From NCBI GenBank assembly GCA_021805625.1, contig JAJZEU010000082.1, positions 1 through 13,867 of the forward strand: DNA of 13,867 bases, in the 5' to 3' direction. The position numbers and the translations under genes are program-made. The DNA is from Microcaldota archaeon. GTDB taxonomy: Archaea > Micrarchaeota > Micrarchaeia > Micrarchaeales > CABMGC01. Below are positions 2,326 through 10,130 of the stretch, piece by piece. Positions within the stretch are counted from its first letter, which is position 1, and each line of letters begins with the position of its first letter. The notes below the pieces were generated by a model. It did no database searches, was not told the DNA's origin, and worked only from the letters and a program-made list of their open reading frames with translations.

Positions 2326-2487
2326 ATGGACTTTCTCGGGCGCCTCTTCCATGCAAATTCCAAGAAGGAAAACACCGGCACTGATCAGAGGAAGGGCTAT
2401 ACCTGCTGGATCTGCAGCAGCAACTTCGAGAGCCCCGTAGACTTCTTGGGGCACCTGAAGACATGCACAGCTTCCGAAGGCAAATAG
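2326..2487 (+). CDS. C2HC zinc-finger microprotein, 53 residues
   Basis: This short frame runs from the ATG at 2326 to the TAG at 2485-2487 and has a strong Shine-Dalgarno site. An N-terminal linker (MDFLGRLFHANSKKEN) leads to one zinc finger: C27-x2-C30, twelve residues, H43-x3-C47, with the hydrophobic positions of a classical C2H2 finger (YTCWIC, F34, L41, HLKTC). It therefore probably binds zinc and contacts nucleic acid or protein. It is the second gene of a pair with the RAM-domain gene, so the two may be a split sensor and binding module. Its last 57 coding bases are duplicated at 2897-2953, next to priL. No single-finger protein of this kind has a function I can assign. Confidence 0.7.
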   Translation: MDFLGRLFHANSKKENTGTDQRKGYTCWICSSNFESPVDFLGHLKTCTASEGK

Positions 2488-2493
2488 GCTCAT
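2431..2493 (+). repeat. Left copy of a 63-bp direct repeat (3' end of zinc-finger gene)
   Basis: Positions 2431-2493 match 2897-2959 with a single mismatch (A at 2478, C at 2944). This copy covers the last 19 codons and stop of the zinc-finger gene plus 6 bases. The homology ends abruptly on both sides (2430/2896 and 2494/2960). It marks the left boundary of the 403-base insert. Confidence 0.9.
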
Positions 2494-2896
2494 AAGATAG
2501 CCCCAAGGAAACTTCTGACTTCAGTCGGATGAGGAATTTGGTGCGCTTTCCCGCCAATACCTTTATAAATACCTTTATATATTCTTGTATACAATGCGAT
2601 ATTATTGATTTGTGAGCGGGAAGGGAAAATTATGACTATTAAGACTAGAAATGAGAAATCAGTGGCTGGAAGGATAGTTTTCTCATACAATGCGAAAGTC
2701 ATAGATGTTATTGATCTTGATGAGGCTTCGTTGAAGCCGGAAAGAAAAGTGAAAATCGTAGAGGATAAATTAAGTGAAATGGTAAGGAAAAAAGTGATCA
2801 AGGGCAGCGAAAGATTCAACGTGAGCATTGTTACAGAATGGTTCCCACCCTCTACTTTTTTATCGTCTACCCAACTTCGACCAGTCGACTCTACGT
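2494..2896. mobile_element. 403-base insert bounded by 63-bp direct repeats
   Basis: Everything between the two repeat copies is absent from a simple zinc-finger/priL tail-to-tail arrangement. The insert is visibly richer in A/T than both neighbours and carries its own promoter and one ORF. The right repeat copy restores the 3' end of the zinc-finger gene, as integrated elements do at attachment sites. Integration with attL/attR-like ends, or a duplication with later replacement of the middle, would both fit. There is no integrase, transposase or terminal inverted repeat, so the element type is unknown. Confidence 0.5.
2556..2579 (+). promoter_or_regulatory. Tandem 12-bp promoter repeat of the insert ORF
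   Basis: The 12-mer aatacctttata occurs twice without a gap (2556-2567 and 2568-2579), giving two TATA-like cores one helical turn apart. From the second core a start near 2603-2606 is expected, some 27 bases before the ATG at 2632. Duplicated cores may raise expression or give two start sites. Confidence 0.5.
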
Positions 2897-2898
2897 AG
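2632..2898 (+). CDS. Hypothetical protein of the insert, 88 residues, probably with an altered C-terminus
   Basis: I do not recognise the family. The ATG at 2632 follows a purine-rich stretch (gggaagggaaaa). An in-frame TTG at 2605 would add nine residues. Residues 12-30 look like paired beta strands (AGRIVFSYNAKVIDVIDLD), 38-57 a charged helix (RKVKIVEDKLSEMVRKKVIK), and 60-71 another strand (ERFNVSIVTEWF). From about residue 72 the sequence turns Ser/Thr/Pro-rich (PPSTFLSST) and unlike the rest. Its TAG (2896-2898) straddles the junction with the right repeat. The native frame may therefore once have ended or continued differently. Lysine- and AT-rich codons differ from the neighbours, suggesting separate origin. 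Confidence 0.5.
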   Translation: MTIKTRNEKSVAGRIVFSYNAKVIDVIDLDEASLKPERKVKIVEDKLSEMVRKKVIKGSERFNVSIVTEWFPPSTFLSSTQLRPVDST

Positions 2899-2959
2899 CC
2901 CCGTAGACTTCTTGGGGCACCTGAAGACATGCACAGCTTCCGACGGCAAATAGGCTCAT
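2897..2959 (+). repeat. Right copy of the 63-bp direct repeat, overlapping the end of priL
   Basis: This copy repeats 2431-2493 with one mismatch. It contains a headless 3' end of the zinc-finger gene, including its TAG (2951-2953). It also supplies the priL stop codon (TGA on minus, 2956-2958). In the presumed ancestor the zinc-finger stop and the priL stop were two bases apart, tail to tail. Confidence 0.9.
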
Positions 2960-3897
2960 TCAAGATTGACTATTCCATGCAGCAGCTCCTTCGCCCTTTT
3001 CAGCGATAGCGGCTTAAGCCCCTTCGCCTTCGCATACCTGCACTGGTACCTAATGTAGGAATCGTTTATCTTGGTGTCGGGGTTTATCTCCTTGCATTTT
3101 TCTATGTAATCAATGATTACCGTCGCTGCCGCATCTGCATCAAGCTCCTTAACATTGGTGAGGTATGGTGCCAGGATTATATTGACGGTCCTGTGCCTCA
3201 CATCGGGAATCGGAGTGCTTAGTAGCTTCTCTATCCAGTCATAACTTCTAGTCATGCCTCCAGTCTTTATACTGACGGCCGGCATTTTTATCCCCCTTGC
3301 CTTCTCAAATACCTCCTTGGGCAGCTCCTTCGCATCTATAGGCAAGCCCCTTGCTACCCTCGAGGCTATGGCCCTGGAAAGCACCCTGAGGAATCTTTCC
3401 CTCCGCAGGTAGACCAAGCCTCCGCCTAGGCGCTGCCTTACAAGCGCAAATTCCTCTCCCCTTGGCATGTACCTGAGATAAGCCTGGAACCTGACGTAGA
3501 ACATGCCGTCTTTCATGCCGGTTTCCAGCGCAATGTCCTTCGCAACCCTTATTATCCCGTCGGGAGGTTCCCCCTCTATTGCCGTTCCGGCCCTTCTTGC
3601 CTCAGCAAATGCGTATTTCCTGACAATGTCCGGGCTTTTCAGTGCACTGACTATCATCCTTGCATAGACGTAGCTTACAAGGTAGGTATACATAAGCTCG
3701 GGGTACCTGGTGTTGACGAACTCTATTGTGCCGCTCTCAATTGCTTCCTGAACCCTGATTGCACCGGCATCCAGGTACTTCTGCGATACTTCCCTTATGC
3801 CGAAGCCCTGTATCGCTTCTCTTGCTGTCGCTGAAAAAGGATATCTGTATGAAAAGCCAAGGTCCTTGATTCCTGCTTCATGCGTGCTCTCTGCCAT
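2956..3897 (-). CDS. priL: DNA primase large subunit (PriL), 313 residues, apparently lacking the Fe-S cluster
   Basis: This is the regulatory subunit of archaeal primase, which with PriS makes replication primers. The N-terminal half has typical PriL signatures: YPFSATAREAI (19-29), a helical region with RYPELMYTYLVSYVYARMIV (64-83), and RRERFLRVLSRAIASRVARGLPI (165-187). The C-terminal part (about 219-305) has DWIEKLLSTPIPDVRHRTV and ILAPYLTNVKEL, then a 'YQCRYAKAKGLKPLSLKRAK' end, which resembles PriX-like domains. Only two cysteines exist (C268, C286), whereas PriL Fe-S domains need four. The family is often 350-400 residues, so this is short. A ribosome-binding GAGGT lies about 6 bases before the ATG. 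It sits 36 bases downstream of pcna on the same strand, an expected replication operon. Confidence 0.82.
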   Translation of the reverse strand: MAESTHEAGIKDLGFSYRYPFSATAREAIQGFGIREVSQKYLDAGAIRVQEAIESGTIEFVNTRYPELMYTYLVSYVYARMIVSALKSPDIVRKYAFAEARRAGTAIEGEPPDGIIRVAKDIALETGMKDGMFYVRFQAYLRYMPRGEEFALVRQRLGGGLVYLRRERFLRVLSRAIASRVARGLPIDAKELPKEVFEKARGIKMPAVSIKTGGMTRSYDWIEKLLSTPIPDVRHRTVNIILAPYLTNVKELDADAAATVIIDYIEKCKEINPDTKINDSYIRYQCRYAKAKGLKPLSLKRAKELLHGIVNLE

Positions 3898-4855: not shown

Positions 4856-5656
4856 ATGATCGGCATTGTGTATTCCACGAAAGACGAAGTCTCGGCCTCT
4901 GCTGCGAGGGCTATAATATCAGAGTACGGGCTCGAAAACAAGGGCGGCTCATTCGCAAATGACAGGATAGCCGTAAAGGAAATAGAAACAGAGCTTACCT
5001 GTGCCGAGAAGGCAGACTCCTTCGGCTTCGAAGTCATATTCTTCCTGAGCAAGCACAGCAGCGCCAAAGGCATACCTGCCTTCACAACCCACGCTACGGG
5101 CAACTGGGCGGGCAAGGCGGAGCTGGGAGGCAAGCCCAAAGAGCTCTCTACGGCTGCCCCTGCATCAATGCTCGCAGTTCTCGCAAGCTTTGGCAAGCTT
5201 GATGTCCGGATAGAAAAGGGTTACGAAGCCACGCACCACGGGCCTCTGCTGAAGACACCCTCGCTTTTCGTCGAGCTGGGAGGAAATGATGAAACAAGAT
5301 CCAACATGGAGTTGCAGCGGAAGCTGGCAGTAGCGGCATATGAGTCTGCAACGCTCACCGCAGACAAAGAAGTAGACATGGCCAAAGTGGTTATTGGCAT
5401 AGGAGGCAACCACTACCCCTCAAAGTTCTCGAAGCTCGCAATGGAAAAGGGCTACGCGTTCTCCCATATAATGCCAAAGTACGCAATAATGAATGATGAC
5501 AGCAGCGACAACCTTGACATGCTGGAACAAACCCTGGCAAGAAGCGCAAACGCCCCAGAGCCCGCGGTTCTTGAGTGGAAGAGCGTGAATTCCGTAGTTA
5601 GAAATAAAATTCTTTCACGGCTAAATGAGATAGGTTTGGATTATGAGAAGATATGA
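4856..5656 (+). CDS. dtdA: D-aminoacyl-tRNA deacylase, archaeal type (DtdA/DTD2), 266 residues
   Basis: The enzyme hydrolyses D-amino acids (for example D-Tyr or D-Asp) from mischarged tRNA, protecting translation. Length and motif order fit the archaeal/plant DTD2 family: FFLSKH (62-67), HATGNW (79-84), EATHHGP (124-130) followed by FVELGG (138-143), and GGNHYPSKFS (183-192). The histidines and acidic residues in these blocks form the conserved active-site face of the family. The ATG at 4856 begins with the typical IGIVYSTKDEVS strand and helix. The last 14 bases overlap the start of the exported repeat protein at 5643, so the two are translated from one message. No sign of damage. Confidence 0.92.
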   Translation: MIGIVYSTKDEVSASAARAIISEYGLENKGGSFANDRIAVKEIETELTCAEKADSFGFEVIFFLSKHSSAKGIPAFTTHATGNWAGKAELGGKPKELSTAAPASMLAVLASFGKLDVRIEKGYEATHHGPLLKTPSLFVELGGNDETRSNMELQRKLAVAAYESATLTADKEVDMAKVVIGIGGNHYPSKFSKLAMEKGYAFSHIMPKYAIMNDDSSDNLDMLEQTLARSANAPEPAVLEWKSVNSVVRNKILSRLNEIGLDYEKI

Positions 5657-7619
5657 GCTCCTGCTCCTCTCCATTGCGTTAATATCCATTGCAAACATAG
5701 CAAGCGCCCAATATTGGTTCCAGTTCGGAGCAAGAGCGGGCAGCCAGGTCAACTACAACTATGGTGCGGGGGTGACAATACAAACGATTCTCCAAAACAC
5801 CTCGGCAGGTTCCCTCGGATTCTGGGTCGGGGAGACGCTTTCAAACGGCGCATTCCTTCAGATGGGCTACACCATTGAGAACACATCTGGAAGCTACCCC
5901 TCATTCTGCACTCCCACAGCATGCACCAACGATGAATACATAAATGCTGGCCAGGCCGAATGGTTCTATGAGTACTTCCTTCCAAACGAGAATTCGGGTT
6001 TCCTCGGCAGGCTCGGGCCTGCTGGCAGCGCAGGCGCCAACGGCACGTTCCACACATATTCTTTCTATTCTGTGGGCAATACGTGGTACTTTGTGTTAGA
6101 TGGCAGCACAGTCGGCAGCGTTGACCTCGGCGCTTCCGATTCTGGCCCAAACACGCCAGTGGCATTCGGAGAGCTTGCCAACTCCAGTGTAAACACGCAG
6201 TACATCCATCCTGTGATATTCAAAAACCTCTCTGCATACGTGGGAGGAAGCAAGACCGAGGTACCTAAAGGTTACTCCTACATAGGGTACGGAGTTGGAA
6301 GCGCAACAGGCCTGCATAACCCTTACGGGGTAAAAGAAGTGGGCAGCAAGGTGAACTACTTCGAAGTAGGTTCAGGCTTGCCGCAGCCTCAGAACCACAC
6401 AGAGCTATGGTCACTCGGCTACCACCTTGTTGTGAATTCGCAGTATGCAAACATAAACAGCAACACCAGCTACATTGCGCTGTCAAACATAGCGATATCA
6501 GCACCTGAAATGGTGCAGGTCAATGCCACAGCAAGGGCCATATTTGCAGGCTGGGAAGGCTCTGGCACCGGATCCTACACAGGCCCTCTGAATAATGTCA
6601 CAGTGCTGATGGGCAGCAATGTAACCGAAACGGCACGCTGGAATATGCAGTACCTCGTAAACGCTTCGTCGCAGTACGGCTCTGCGACAGGAAGTGGCTG
6701 GTACAATCTTGGCAGCCCAGCTACATACGGCATAAGCACAAACATTTCCAATATAAGCACAGGCGCAAGGGCAGTCTTTACGGGCTGGAGCAGCGGCAAC
6801 AGGAACGAGAGCGGGAGCATCATCGTAACCGGACCGGAAAGCATAAGCGCCATATGGCAGACGCAGTATCTGCTTAGCGTCAGTTCGCAGTTCGGCAACG
6901 TGACAGGAAGTGGCTGGTACGCGAACGACACGCTTGTAACTGTATCTGAAAGGGTAACGAACGTAACGGTATCGCAGGGCGAGCGCTACACATTTACGGG
7001 CTGGAGCAGCGGCAACACCAGTGCAACTGTATCGTTGCTTCTCACAAGCCCTGTAACAATGGATGCGCTCTTCGCAAAGCAATATCTTGTGCACTTCATA
7101 ACAGAAAACGCATACGGCTCGCAGATAAATTCCAGCAACCTCTACCTAGATTCACGGCCTGTAGGCAGCACCGCATTCATAAATGCAAACCAGGGTTATA
7201 ATCTGACCGGCGCAAAATATGAGGGAATTCAGCTGAGTTTCAAGAGCCCGTTTTTTGCATCTGCGCCATCAGACATACCTGTGAAGCTGCCTGTATTCAA
7301 TGTGAAGATATCATCAAGCGACCTATTCGGATTGACTGTGGCGCCGGTCTACGTGGTAAGCACATCCAATACCCAAAACCAGACTTACAATCCCCAGAAC
7401 GGAACCGTAATCCTTGACAACCTGCCTTATGGCTATGCAAGGGGCACAGCTAGCTACCTGGGCATCACACAGAGCTTCTCCACTAGGGGCGGCGGTGGTG
7501 TTTCGCTCCTCTTCTTTTCCATAGCGAACATCCTCGCATTCGGCTTTGTCGCAGCTGCGATAGCATTGGCATACGTGCTCGCAAGGCACCACTACGCCAG
7601 GCAGAATGGCAGCGTATAG
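5643..7619 (+). CDS. Exported, membrane-anchored repeat protein with a glutamic-peptidase-like N-terminal domain, 658 residues
   Basis: A signal peptide (residues 1-22, cleavage likely after IASA) and a C-terminal transmembrane helix (about 619-647, then a short basic tail) place the protein outside the cell, anchored in the membrane. Residues about 23-200 resemble the concanavalin-like fold of glutamic peptidases (family G1). GFWVGETLSNGAFLQMG (59-75) parallels the WVG...ILQTG block carrying the catalytic Gln, suggesting Q73, and AFGELA offers E177. This is by eye and tentative. Residues about 258-480 hold three related units of about 72-79 residues, each with a QYxxxSSQYG- or SQYA-like start and a central FxGW motif. 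About two dozen N-x-S/T sequons suggest glycosylation. It overlaps dtdA by 14 bases. It could instead be an adhesin or S-layer-associated protein. Confidence 0.68.
   Translation: MRRYELLLLSIALISIANIASAQYWFQFGARAGSQVNYNYGAGVTIQTILQNTSAGSLGFWVGETLSNGAFLQMGYTIENTSGSYPSFCTPTACTNDEYINAGQAEWFYEYFLPNENSGFLGRLGPAGSAGANGTFHTYSFYSVGNTWYFVLDGSTVGSVDLGASDSGPNTPVAFGELANSSVNTQYIHPVIFKNLSAYVGGSKTEVPKGYSYIGYGVGSATGLHNPYGVKEVGSKVNYFEVGSGLPQPQNHTELWSLGYHLVVNSQYANINSNTSYIALSNIAISAPEMVQVNATARAIFAGWEGSGTGSYTGPLNNVTVLMGSNVTETARWNMQYLVNASSQYGSATGSGWYNLGSPATYGISTNISNISTGARAVFTGWSSGNRNESGSIIVTGPESISAIWQTQYLLSVSSQFGNVTGSGWYANDTLVTVSERVTNVTVSQGERYTFTGWSSGNTSATVSLLLTSPVTMDALFAKQYLVHFITENAYGSQINSSNLYLDSRPVGSTAFINANQGYNLTGAKYEGIQLSFKSPFFASAPSDIPVKLPVFNVKISSSDLFGLTVAPVYVVSTSNTQNQTYNPQNGTVILDNLPYGYARGTASYLGITQSFSTRGGGGVSLLFFSIANILAFGFVAAAIALAYVLARHHYARQNGSV
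6651..7082 (+). repeat. Two adjacent 216-bp coding repeats in the exported protein
   Basis: Residues 337-408 and 409-480 are in-frame copies with a 216-bp (72-codon) period. Identity is high at the DNA level in blocks: the 19 bases at 6686-6704 recur at 6902-6920, and the 25 bases at 6777-6801 (encoding FTGWSSGN) recur at 6993-7017. A more diverged third copy precedes them (about residues 258-336). Identity of this sort points to recent duplication or to recombination between copies. Confidence 0.8.
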
Positions 7620-7672: not shown

Positions 7673-8194
7673 ATGAAGATTGCAGTGATAATACCTCCAA
7701 AAGATTTCAAGGATGAAACTCTTTCAATGGCGAAGCTTCTCATGAACAAATGGGAAGTAAAACCAGTGATATCGAGCTATACCTCCAGTCCGTGCACCGG
7801 AGTCCACGGAGCTGTTGCAATTCCGGAAGTCAATGCATCGAAGCTTGAGGTGCAGGACTACAGCGCGCTGCTGCTCATCGATGGCACCGGAGTAGATTCC
7901 TACAAGCTCTATGATTTCAGGCCGTTGCTCGATCTCATCAAGAACTTCAGCGCTTCCGGAAAAGTGGTCGGCGCTATAGGCAATGCCATAAAGGTCATTT
8001 CAAGGGCCAACATAATAACCGACACCAAAGTCTCTGCCCCGCCGGATGAGGAATCTCAAAGATTGATCAGGATTTACAAAGGGGTAAACTCCCAGAACCC
8101 AGTAGAGGTGGACAAGAACGTGGTAACCGCAAGGAGCTCAGAAAATGCCGAGACTTTCATCAGCACTGTCTTGGATGCCATAGGGGCGAAGTGA
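7673..8194 (+). CDS. DJ-1/PfpI-like protein without the usual nucleophile, 173 residues
   Basis: The order of secondary structure follows the class I glutamine-amidotransferase-like (DJ-1/PfpI) fold. There is an N-terminal strand (KIAVIIPP), the DETLSMAKLL helix with an acid at E15, LLLIDGTG (66-73), a helix (FRPLLDLIKNF), then KVVGAIGNA (97-105). In active members this last block is the nucleophile elbow, AIC-x-G; here the Cys position is G103 in AIGNA. The only cysteine is C41. The protein is therefore probably not a protease, chaperone-deglycase or hydratase of the usual type, and may be a structural or regulatory relative. Length (173) is normal. It ends one base before the convergent RNase P gene. 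Confidence 0.7.
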   Translation: MKIAVIIPPKDFKDETLSMAKLLMNKWEVKPVISSYTSSPCTGVHGAVAIPEVNASKLEVQDYSALLLIDGTGVDSYKLYDFRPLLDLIKNFSASGKVVGAIGNAIKVISRANIITDTKVSAPPDEESQRLIRIYKGVNSQNPVEVDKNVVTARSSENAETFISTVLDAIGAK

Positions 8195-8195
8195 A

Positions 8196-8516
8196 TTAGC
8201 TTCTCCTGTAGAATATGTGCTTCTCATTTCCGCATTCGCATTTGTATACAGCATAGCCTTCAGAACTTGCCATCCTTACTGTGCAGTTCCTCCCAGGAAT
8301 GAGCACAGCTCCGCATCCGCTGCATATGCCGTTCTTTATACGCTTCGGCAGAGGCACCTTGTAGTGCATGCCTATCTTCTTAAGAAGGCGCGTATACCTC
8401 TTTGCAAGCCTCATACCATCCTCGCCGCCGCCTGCCTCCTTCTCTGCTGCAAGCTCGAAGAGCTTCTCTATCCTCTCCAGGGCGATCCTCTTCACTATGC
8501 TAGGCTTGCTGTGCAT
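8196..8516 (-). CDS. rnp4: RNase P protein component 4 (Rpp21/Rpr2 family), 106 residues
   Basis: This is a subunit of archaeal RNase P, which matures the 5' ends of tRNAs. In archaea it works with Rpp29 on the specificity domain of the RNA. The N-terminal half is helical and basic (SIVKRIALERIEKLFELA, RLAKRYTRLLKKIGMHYKVPLPKRIKNGI). The C-terminal half is the zinc ribbon: C65-x2-C68-GAVLIPGRNC, then YKCECGNEKHIFYRR with C93 and C95. The second pair is spaced CxC rather than the usual Cx2C, so zinc ligation may use a shifted residue. Length fits the family. The palindrome tcacaatgtga (8521-8531) lies 5 bases upstream of the ATG, where it could affect initiation. Confidence 0.88.
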   Translation of the reverse strand: MHSKPSIVKRIALERIEKLFELAAEKEAGGGEDGMRLAKRYTRLLKKIGMHYKVPLPKRIKNGICSGCGAVLIPGRNCTVRMASSEGYAVYKCECGNEKHIFYRRS

Positions 8517-8589
8517 GAGCTCACAATGTGAAGTGCAATTCTATACGGCAAACGCTATCGGTGCATCGGTATTTCGTCACGGCTATCTA

Positions 8590-8844
8590 TTACTGCCTTC
8601 CCTTCTTCTCCTTGTCGTAGGCAATCCAGCTGTCGTATACCTCCGGAGCCCCAATCTTGAGCCTGGACAGCACAGTCGTCCTTATCTCTTCAGTAGTCAC
8701 CGCATCCCTGCCGGAAAACGACGCCTCAACCTCTGAAGCCACGTTTCTAGCCAGATCCAGCGCTCCTCCAGACTTCAGGACCGCCACCACGATCTTCTCT
8801 CTTGCAAATTCTTTGCTAGTACCATCTCTCCTCTTTGCTTCCAT
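8590..8844 (-). CDS. Stand-alone ATP-cone domain protein, 84 residues
   Basis: The sequence is almost entirely an ATP-cone, the nucleotide-sensing domain found in NrdR and ribonucleotide reductases. It has V/R-KRDGTSKEFAREKIVVAVLKSGG (4-27), then DLARNVASEVEASF, then VTTEEIRTTVLSRLKIGAPEVYDSWIAYDK (49-78). The family's KRDG turn and Y...W..Y end are both present. No zinc ribbon (as in NrdR) or reductase follows, so it probably senses ATP/dATP as a separate subunit or regulator. It is divergent from the prenyl synthase gene, with 56 bases between start codons. An A/T-rich core around 8872 may serve both. The partner is unknown. Confidence 0.8.
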   Translation of the reverse strand: MEAKRRDGTSKEFAREKIVVAVLKSGGALDLARNVASEVEASFSGRDAVTTEEIRTTVLSRLKIGAPEVYDSWIAYDKEKKGRQ

Positions 8845-8900
8845 ATGGATGCATATTGCAAACCAAGTGATTTAGCTTTTTCCAAACGATTCATATACTT

Positions 8901-10013
8901 ATGAAACACGCGACAAGCACTGCTATGCGGGAGTCCGTAGAAAGGATCGCAGAACTCAAAGCGCTTTACAGAACAGAGGACTACTGGAAATTCACCACAG
9001 AGGTAAAAGAGCATGTGTATGAAAAGGTGCTAGAGGCGATTCCTGATTTTTATAAGAAGAATCCAGAGCTGTACAATTTGCTCGAGGAATACCCCAAGCG
9101 CAGGGGCCACTACTCCAGGCCGCTGCTGCTCATACTCTCCGCTCTCTCCCTCTCCGACGGCAGCGATAAGGAGCTGTTTAACAAGGCGATAGAGCTCGGC
9201 GCGATAATACAGCTCTCCGAAGAATGGATACTTGTGCACGACGACATAATGGACGGCGCAAGCATGAGGAGGGGCAAGCCGACGCTGCACGGCATGGTGG
9301 GACCTGAAATAGCCATGCTTGTCGGGGACATACTCCACAATGCGATGGCAGAGGCTATGCACAACTTCGCCCAGAAATATGGCGCTCAAGGGGATAAGAT
9401 ATACAAAGTCTTCAACAACGAGATAGGAAATGCTACTGCGCTCGGGAAGTATCTTGACCTGAAATTCACGAAGCTCATAAGGGACCCCGGTGCTGTTGGG
9501 GAAGACTTCTACATAGACATAGTGAATGGAAAGACCCTACAGTATACAGTAAAGGGACCGATGGTGCTCGCTGCAATACTGGCCGGAAAGGGTCCTGACA
9601 TGATAGAGAAGATAGTGCGCATTGCGGAATCTGCAGGAATTGCATTCCAGATAAACGACGACCTGATTGACATGAAAACAGGCGCAAAATCAGGAAAGGA
9701 CCAATACGGTGACCTATATGAGGGCAAGCTTACCCTGATAATACACCACGCATATACGCATGCCACCACTGAAGAAAAGTCAAGGATTCTTGAGATCTAC
9801 AGGAAGGATCGCAAAGACAAGACCCAAGAGGACATAGAATTCCTTAAGGGCGTGATAAGCAAGTACAATTCCATGCAATACGTCGAGGCAAAAAAAGAAG
9901 AAGCAGAGGGCAGCACATGGAAGAACATGCAGGAGTATGCCAAAGAGATGCCCTCCAACAAGTACGCATCGTGGCTCCTAGCTACGATTCTAATGCTGTA
10001 CAACAGGGACTGA
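8901..10013 (+). CDS. Polyprenyl diphosphate synthase (GGPP/FPP synthase type), 370 residues
   Basis: The enzyme condenses isopentenyl diphosphate with an allylic diphosphate, feeding archaeal ether-lipid synthesis. Both aspartate-rich motifs that bind magnesium and substrate are intact: HDDIMD (113-118) followed by RRGKPTLH (123-130), and NDDLID (252-257) followed by GKDQYGDLYEGKLTL (265-279). The basic substrate-binding block KRRGHYSRP (66-74) matches the family's GKRLRP region loosely. W109, five residues before the first motif, is bulky where chain length is usually set, but product length cannot be deduced safely. The chain is somewhat longer than the common 320-350 residues because of N- and C-terminal helices. 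The ATG at 8901 is the first in frame after the divergent promoter. Confidence 0.9.
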   Translation: MKHATSTAMRESVERIAELKALYRTEDYWKFTTEVKEHVYEKVLEAIPDFYKKNPELYNLLEEYPKRRGHYSRPLLLILSALSLSDGSDKELFNKAIELGAIIQLSEEWILVHDDIMDGASMRRGKPTLHGMVGPEIAMLVGDILHNAMAEAMHNFAQKYGAQGDKIYKVFNNEIGNATALGKYLDLKFTKLIRDPGAVGEDFYIDIVNGKTLQYTVKGPMVLAAILAGKGPDMIEKIVRIAESAGIAFQINDDLIDMKTGAKSGKDQYGDLYEGKLTLIIHHAYTHATTEEKSRILEIYRKDRKDKTQEDIEFLKGVISKYNSMQYVEAKKEEAEGSTWKNMQEYAKEMPSNKYASWLLATILMLYNRD

Positions 10014-10028
10014 ATAAAGCAAGAAAAG

Positions 10029-10103
10029 TGGGCCCGAGGAGATTTGAACTCCTGACCTACGGCTTATAAGACCGCCGCTCTAACCAAGCTGAGCTACGAG
10101 CCC
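10029..10103 (-). tRNA. tRNA-Ile, anticodon UAU
   Basis: A complete 75-base cloverleaf reads on the minus strand. The acceptor is GGGCTCG/CGGGCCC with discriminator A, then T8-A9, D stem GCTC/GAGC with the AGCTTGGTTA loop, and anticodon stem GCGGT/GCCGT closing CTTATAA. The variable loop is AGGTC and the T arm is AGGAG-TTCAAAT-CTCCT. Positions 34-36 are TAT, which reads AUA. CCA is not encoded and there is no intron. The overall sequence resembles archaeal tRNA-Ile, supporting isoleucine identity. A TATA box lies at 10131-10140 on the minus strand. Most archaea decode AUA with a CAU tRNA carrying agmatidine, so a UAU tRNA is uncommon. Confidence 0.93.
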
Positions 10104-10130
10104 ACGAATACACCCGATACTGCATCGTTA

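Follow-up and report, generated by a model that had tools for sequence, protein, structure and literature searches.

The direct repeats and the insert at positions 2431-2959 of the window (the whole analysed stretch of DNA, 13,867 nucleotides, contig C98 of a Microcaldota archaeon) probably represent the scar of an IS200/IS605-type insertion. The inserted element would have been combined with a small-alarmone-synthetase operon of the Thermoplasmata type, and the present structure would have been made by exchange with an empty copy of the site. The genome comprises 817 kb on 151 contigs and is 73% complete; the genomes listed for the order measure about 0.5-1.3 Mb each.

The window codes for PCNA, a priL-like protein, D-aminoacyl-tRNA deacylase and SRP54. 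The insert is located between two genes on opposite strands. A zinc-finger gene of 53 aa (2326..2487, plus strand) was read directly as an open reading frame; its stop codon TAG is at 2485-2487 and its 3' tail coincides with the repeat. Relatives of this gene were found in 20 of 164 genomes of the order (own genome counted), and comparison of the protein to Pfam gave nothing at E <= 1. The priL-like gene (2956..3897, minus strand) has a PriX-like C-terminus (PF18689, E 6.5e-14; PF04104 weak), and its stop (2956-2958, minus) is situated within the second CTCAT (2955-2959). Two further observations were made in the window. Short direct repeats (AAATGGCATTGCAGTCTG / AAATGACATTGCAGTCTG) are present at 101-137, directly 5' of an ORF of 99 aa (144-443). 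The gene at 5643-7619 contains two 66-bp DNA repeats of 73% identity and encodes a 658-aa protein with a signal-like start and a weak InlB B-repeat match (PF18998, below the cut-off), which is probably a surface protein.

The 63-bp direct repeats described in the earlier note were recovered at 2431-2493 and 2897-2959 (plus strand), with 62 of 63 positions identical and a start-to-start distance of 466. The sole mismatch is located at repeat position 48 (A/C). Under a uniform-base model, about 2e-28 pairs of such quality are expected by chance in the window. The left copy is the native 3' end of the zinc-finger gene, includes its stop codon and terminates in CTCAT (2489..2493). The right copy is a second zinc-finger tail, in which the zinc-finger stop (2951-2953) and the priL stop are two bases apart, as had been stated for the site without insert. 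The intervening 403 bp (2494-2896) are indeed richer in A/T, with 39.0% GC; the corresponding values are 47.8% (window), 53.1% (zinc-finger gene) and 50.6% (priL). Apart from an intact gene of 88 aa (2632..2898, plus strand) no gene was detected in the insert, and tnpA, tnpB and integrase genes were absent from it. The stop codon of the 88-aa gene occupies 2896-2898, and the right repeat begins with its final two bases. This start of the right repeat within a stop codon was not part of the earlier description, nor was the transposon end that forms the left part of the insert.

A misjoin of the second repeat or of the insert during metagenome assembly would be conceivable in a draft of 151 contigs that is 73% complete, but is extremely improbable. 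The two repeat copies differ by one base, both borders fall on meaningful sequences, and database records place an identical 88-aa protein on 3 contigs, of which the largest (15,776 bases) exceeds the contig studied here.

The first part of the insert, starting with AAGATAGCCCC at 2494, had matches in 3 of the order's 164 genomes, the own one among them (G050, E 8e-19; G047, E 3e-12; own contig C111, E 4e-10). In G050, the left end runs into the gene of a 399-aa TnpB protein (PF07282, E 1e-16; TIGR01766 above cut-off; NF040570, E 5.6e-25, with 88 of the 100 bits required by its cut-off), and a hairpin plus GGTAGTTTAC completes the element where the contig ends. In G047, the left end is followed by the start of tnpB, which breaks off. 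On C111 it is joined straight to GGTAGTTTAC, forming a minimal remnant at the 3' end of a gene. The own genome contains another TnpB element on C18 (59% protein identity), whose left end is of a different kind and which terminates in a hairpin plus TAATTTAC. The motif TARTTTAC ends the elements of G050, C111 and C18; two unrelated loci (L014, L027) contain it as well, by chance. As judged by these sequence matches, the insert from 2494 to about 2575 is the left end of an IS200/IS605 (TnpB) element, and fainter similarity extends to the tnpB start position at about 2620. YTCAT stands before each of the four left-end copies that were found (as TTCAT on C111 and as CTCAT in the window, G050 and G047), and the left 63-bp repeat stops exactly at CTCAT, the presumed insertion target. 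The right end, which consists of a hairpin and TARTTTAC in the relatives, was found neither in the insert nor elsewhere in the window. Among 17 loci compared, including those of the Y1 transposases and other TnpB genes of the own genome, this left end was found only in the C111 remnant. One order-wide search produced matches in 99 genomes, and loci were taken for 30 matches only. Viral contigs scanned with left-end patterns yielded no relative. The remnant on C111 (L006, 185-236) is shorter than 50 bp, and has the left end fused to the right-end motif. A methyltransferase-like gene (minus strand, 232-846) has its stop within this motif.

Two TATA-like stretches (2562..2581, plus strand; starts at 2562 and 2574) form a putative promoter in front of the 88-aa gene. 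Since they fall within the leader derived from the transposon, or at its margin, the 88-aa gene may use a promoter taken over from the element.

ISDra2 is described as sitting 3' of TTGAT and as being mobilised in single-stranded form at the replication fork, with no target duplication (PMC2806898, PMC8612924). The window resembles IS200/IS605 elements with TnpB (ISDra2, IS608) and their remnants in the left-end sequence, the hairpin region, the fixed target 5' of the left end and the tnpB gene present in G050. It differs from ISDra2 and IS608 in that tnpA, tnpB and the right end are missing and another gene occupies the tnpB start position. Furthermore, it has a 63-bp copy of the target, which insertion of an IS605 element does not make. 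Both ends of the 466-bp unit adjoin CTCAT, and the own genome holds several Y1 transposases. These observations would fit a unit made by the transposase, in which TnpA took the CTCAT of the right tail as the lost right end, and left end, cargo and tail were moved or rebuilt together. Such an origin is very improbable, as known right ends of this kind consist of hairpin and TARTTTAC and no second copy of the unit was found in the genome.

The 88-aa reading frame proved to be a real gene. Apart from itself, nine homologues with 66-78% identity were found, the two named ones originating from a Thermoplasmatales archaeon and from Cuniculiplasma. A chance reading frame was ruled out by these relatives and by dN being lower than dS (0.09-0.13 vs 0.91-1.57 against four Thermoplasmata copies, 67 codons); these values are no proof of present selection, because most of the divergence may predate the loss of the partner. 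The gene is present on four Thermoplasmata contigs; among the 117 genomes of the order searched there, the four to which these contigs belong gave the only matches. The earlier note had named an old structure carried by all relatives as a result that would refute it; the opposite was found, as in the window's order the gene occurs in the own genome only (1 of 164) and in 0 of the 163 others. The window's protein departs from all nine relatives at R65 and R70. It is predicted to fold as strand-strand-helix-strand, with a tail of low confidence that is yet well conserved (mean pLDDT 69). No curated Pfam or NCBIfam family matched above cut-off. Similarity to MxiM was obtained for 9 of 10 family members at E <= 1 (best E 7e-4; PDB E 0.0034), and the window's protein scored 13.8 bits at a cut-off of 25. 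A fold search with the model of the 88-aa protein gave nothing at E <= 0.001. Viral contigs scanned with the gene and with the family alignment contained no relative; an IMG/VR match (L051) was rejected, being a DNA match inside an unrelated reading frame of 146 aa.

At all four Thermoplasmata loci the 88-aa gene is the immediate 5' neighbour of a RelA/SpoT-type gene; the matched parts of the two genes are 15-18 bp apart. The RelA/SpoT-type gene is cut by the contig end at one locus (L053) and disrupted at its 3' end at another (L054). The Pfam domain RelA_SpoT (PF04607) was detected in the two proteins tested (L052, E 5.2e-7; L055, E 2.5e-9) and was precomputed for 7 of 9 protein matches. Alignment A2 contained seven of these nine protein matches together with L052 and L055; P0019 and P0020, both short, were not included. 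For the structure predicted for the L052 synthetase (pLDDT 75), the closest matches were small alarmone synthetases (Foldseek E 3.6e-7, TM about 0.5), and the tRNA pyrophosphokinase CapRel appeared lower in the list. With PADLOC, the synthetase weakly matched the candidate family PDC-S33 (E 7.8e-6 and 0.0019). Searches with the synthetase as query found no relative on viral contigs and none on plasmids. In two of the four loci a tRNA-Leu gene lies just 5' of the two-gene unit (L052, 5822-6938; L054, 3695-4767), with different anticodons (tag and cag), as if tRNA-Leu ends were favoured as sites for the unit.

The Thermoplasmata unit resembles the toxin-antitoxin pairs of toxSAS type (toxic small alarmone synthetases; PMC8832971) in the position of a small gene directly before a gene for a single-domain RelA/SpoT-type synthetase. 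On the basis of this resemblance the 88-aa protein is named a probable antitoxin. In contrast to the toxSAS pairs, the small protein is outside curated families, the window has no synthetase, and both the toxicity of the partner and its neutralisation are putative. No paper on small alarmone synthetases in Thermoplasmata archaea was found in a limited literature search.

A piece of the synthetase gene was found in one of 164 genomes of the window's order, again only the own, 73% complete genome, as a broken start on contig C149. The restriction of both the antitoxin gene and the synthetase piece to the own genome (1 of 164 each) points to transfer of the operon from Thermoplasmata, a direction that we infer from the distribution. 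Gene transfer between Thermoplasmatales and Micrarchaeota-type symbionts is described for Mia14 and Cuniculiplasma (PMC5498576), and PMC8975820 suggests it for M. harzensis. Those cases share with the window a Thermoplasmata gene family in a small archaeal genome, and differ from it in that the direction proposed here is derived from distribution.

Contig C149 carries a decayed copy of the operon. Two blocks of the 88-aa gene region are shared with the window (50 bp at 96% and about 107 bp at 94% identity), with other sequence between them, and the copy has the first of the two changes of the window's protein (R65). The blocks are followed by a spacer and by the start of the synthetase gene (37 residues, 47% identity, two stops). 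From the second block onward, C149 could be aligned with L052 in one piece (73.9% over 199 columns, 4 gap openings) across the antitoxin end, the spacer and the synthetase start. The spacer ACGTAGCCCTGTAGGG, including AGCCCTGTAG, is therefore native to the operon and not copied from the repeat. The window tracks the C149 spacer via ACGTAGCCC and GTAG, and thereafter continues with zinc-finger sequence. The zinc-finger gene itself holds AGCCCCGTAG (2431..2440, plus strand), the first ten bases of the repeat, which form the short homology with the cargo operon. The repeat thus starts at a match of 9 out of 10 bases between operon and target gene, consisting of 5 perfect bases, a mismatch and 4 more. 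In 200,000 random joins of C149 and window, at least 5 perfect bases were obtained in 0.57% and a 9/10 match across the join in 0.024%; as C149 stands in for the parent, these odds are only a guide.

The surrounding region of C149 (L005, about 7900-10128) consists of broken reading frames behind intact genes, and contains the decayed operon copy as well as a chimaeric ORF of 194 aa without relatives. At about 7900 there is a hairpin end (TGACATCCTCTCCCGAC...), which we take to be IS605-like. The 194-aa ORF was tried as parent gene and rejected: its only match is itself, and it includes one of the two shared blocks, with the other behind its stop. A left end of the window's type was not found on C149.

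The layout of the repeats and of the zinc-finger gene, whose 3' end is rebuilt, had led the earlier note to a comparison with att-site integration. An element with a 63-bp zinc-finger tail would have recombined with the gene and rebuilt its 3' end, with an integrase acting in trans. One intact tyrosine-integrase match is present in the genome (contig C10) and keeps this explanation alive at a low level; the insert itself lacks an integrase, as had been noticed. Integrative elements that restore the 3' end of the gene they enter show the same combination of direct repeats and rebuilt gene end. In contrast to these, the relative on C149 has no full-length attP-like copy, and one border of the insert is a transposon end. 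C149, as one decayed relative, shares about 10 of the 63 bp, a further copy of the repeat was found nowhere in the own, 73% complete genome, an IS605 left end, placed at its own target, forms the left border, and near the integrase no comparable long repeat was found. An att-type origin is thus quite improbable. Nor is a new type of very small mobile element required, since each repeat border has a simpler explanation, namely the short homology with the cargo operon on the left and the transposon target on the right. Of the earlier reading, the scar of a small mobile element is retained, now with an IS200/IS605 left end, and the att-type mechanism and the new element type are given up.

The same final map would result if a tandem duplication of the zinc-finger tail came first, a cargo-bearing IS605-type element then entered behind copy one, and a later deletion joined the cargo to copy two, for which the same short homology could be exploited. 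This course is unlikely, as it needs an extra, unrelated event and a left border that coincides with the short homology by accident.

For the preferred explanation, insertion followed by exchange with an empty copy, we infer the following order of events. The element would have carried, or become joined to, a small-alarmone-synthetase operon of the Thermoplasmata type. With its left end after YTCAT, it would have been inserted 3' of the CTCAT that links the zinc-finger and priL stops. The filled copy would have consisted of zinc-finger tail, CTCAT, left end, antitoxin, spacer, synthetase, right end and priL, and the empty copy of zinc-finger tail, CTCAT and priL. Both copies would be expected together, because IS605 elements are excised and inserted on one strand at the replication fork. 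The filled copy would then have recombined with the empty copy, or copying would have switched to it, at the short shared sequence, i.e., AGCCCyGTAG past the stop of the cargo antitoxin and AGCCCCGTAG in the zinc-finger gene. The product would be the zinc-finger gene, the left end, the antitoxin, a second zinc-finger tail through CTCAT, and priL. Such an exchange would remove the partner gene and the transposon right end, and would leave the zinc-finger, priL and antitoxin genes whole. A repeat that is bounded by a transposon target and a short homology is as expected from recombination between an element-bearing site and an empty copy; template switch in repair or unequal exchange would both fit. 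TnpB has been proposed to cut the empty joint and thereby to provoke repair from the filled sister (PMC8612924).

Some observations argue against the exchange model. The perfect core at the join is short (5 bp), and in G050 and G047 the place after the left end is occupied by tnpB, whereas in the window it is taken by the operon gene. A parent element with left end, operon and right end was not found among the sequences searched. No example of an empty site was found, the genus being represented by one genome; the zinc-finger gene was absent from the priL-matching loci of four relatives (L012, L024, L035, L037), and a first scan of the genome contigs with the priL protein gave no match.

If the pair is addictive, selection would be expected to favour cells that lose the partner and keep the antitoxin. 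Orphan (solitary) antitoxins and the anti-addiction idea form the background for this. Like other orphans, the window has an intact, probable antitoxin gene without a partner beside it; its function is putative, and, as a difference, the sequence lets a probable route of partner loss be read. A more detailed scenario, speculative and rather unlikely as a whole, combines these points. In this scenario, a Thermoplasmata toxin-antitoxin pair was acquired on an IS605-type element, and excision with repair from the sister, perhaps started by TnpB at the empty joint, shed the toxin at the antitoxin stop. The lone antitoxin, driven by a transposon promoter, would be kept as protection against renewed entry of the toxin from Thermoplasmata of the same community.

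Each component is of a known kind (IS605 remnants, toxSAS pairs, orphan antitoxins, gene transfer between Thermoplasmatales and symbionts). Their combination and the explanation of the repeat are apparently new, as far as a limited literature search extends; the structure is a new scar from known processes. Where direct repeats flank an insert, the usual interpretation is att sites or duplication of the target. The explanation of a 63-bp repeat by a transposon target plus a short homology offers a way to spot similar scars. The analysis also describes a small protein family beside a RelA/SpoT-type synthetase in Thermoplasmata that also occurs in one archaeon with a small genome, in which the small gene is intact and has no partner beside it. 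If the pair consists of toxin and antitoxin, the orphan gene would make the anti-addiction idea directly testable in an archaeal community.
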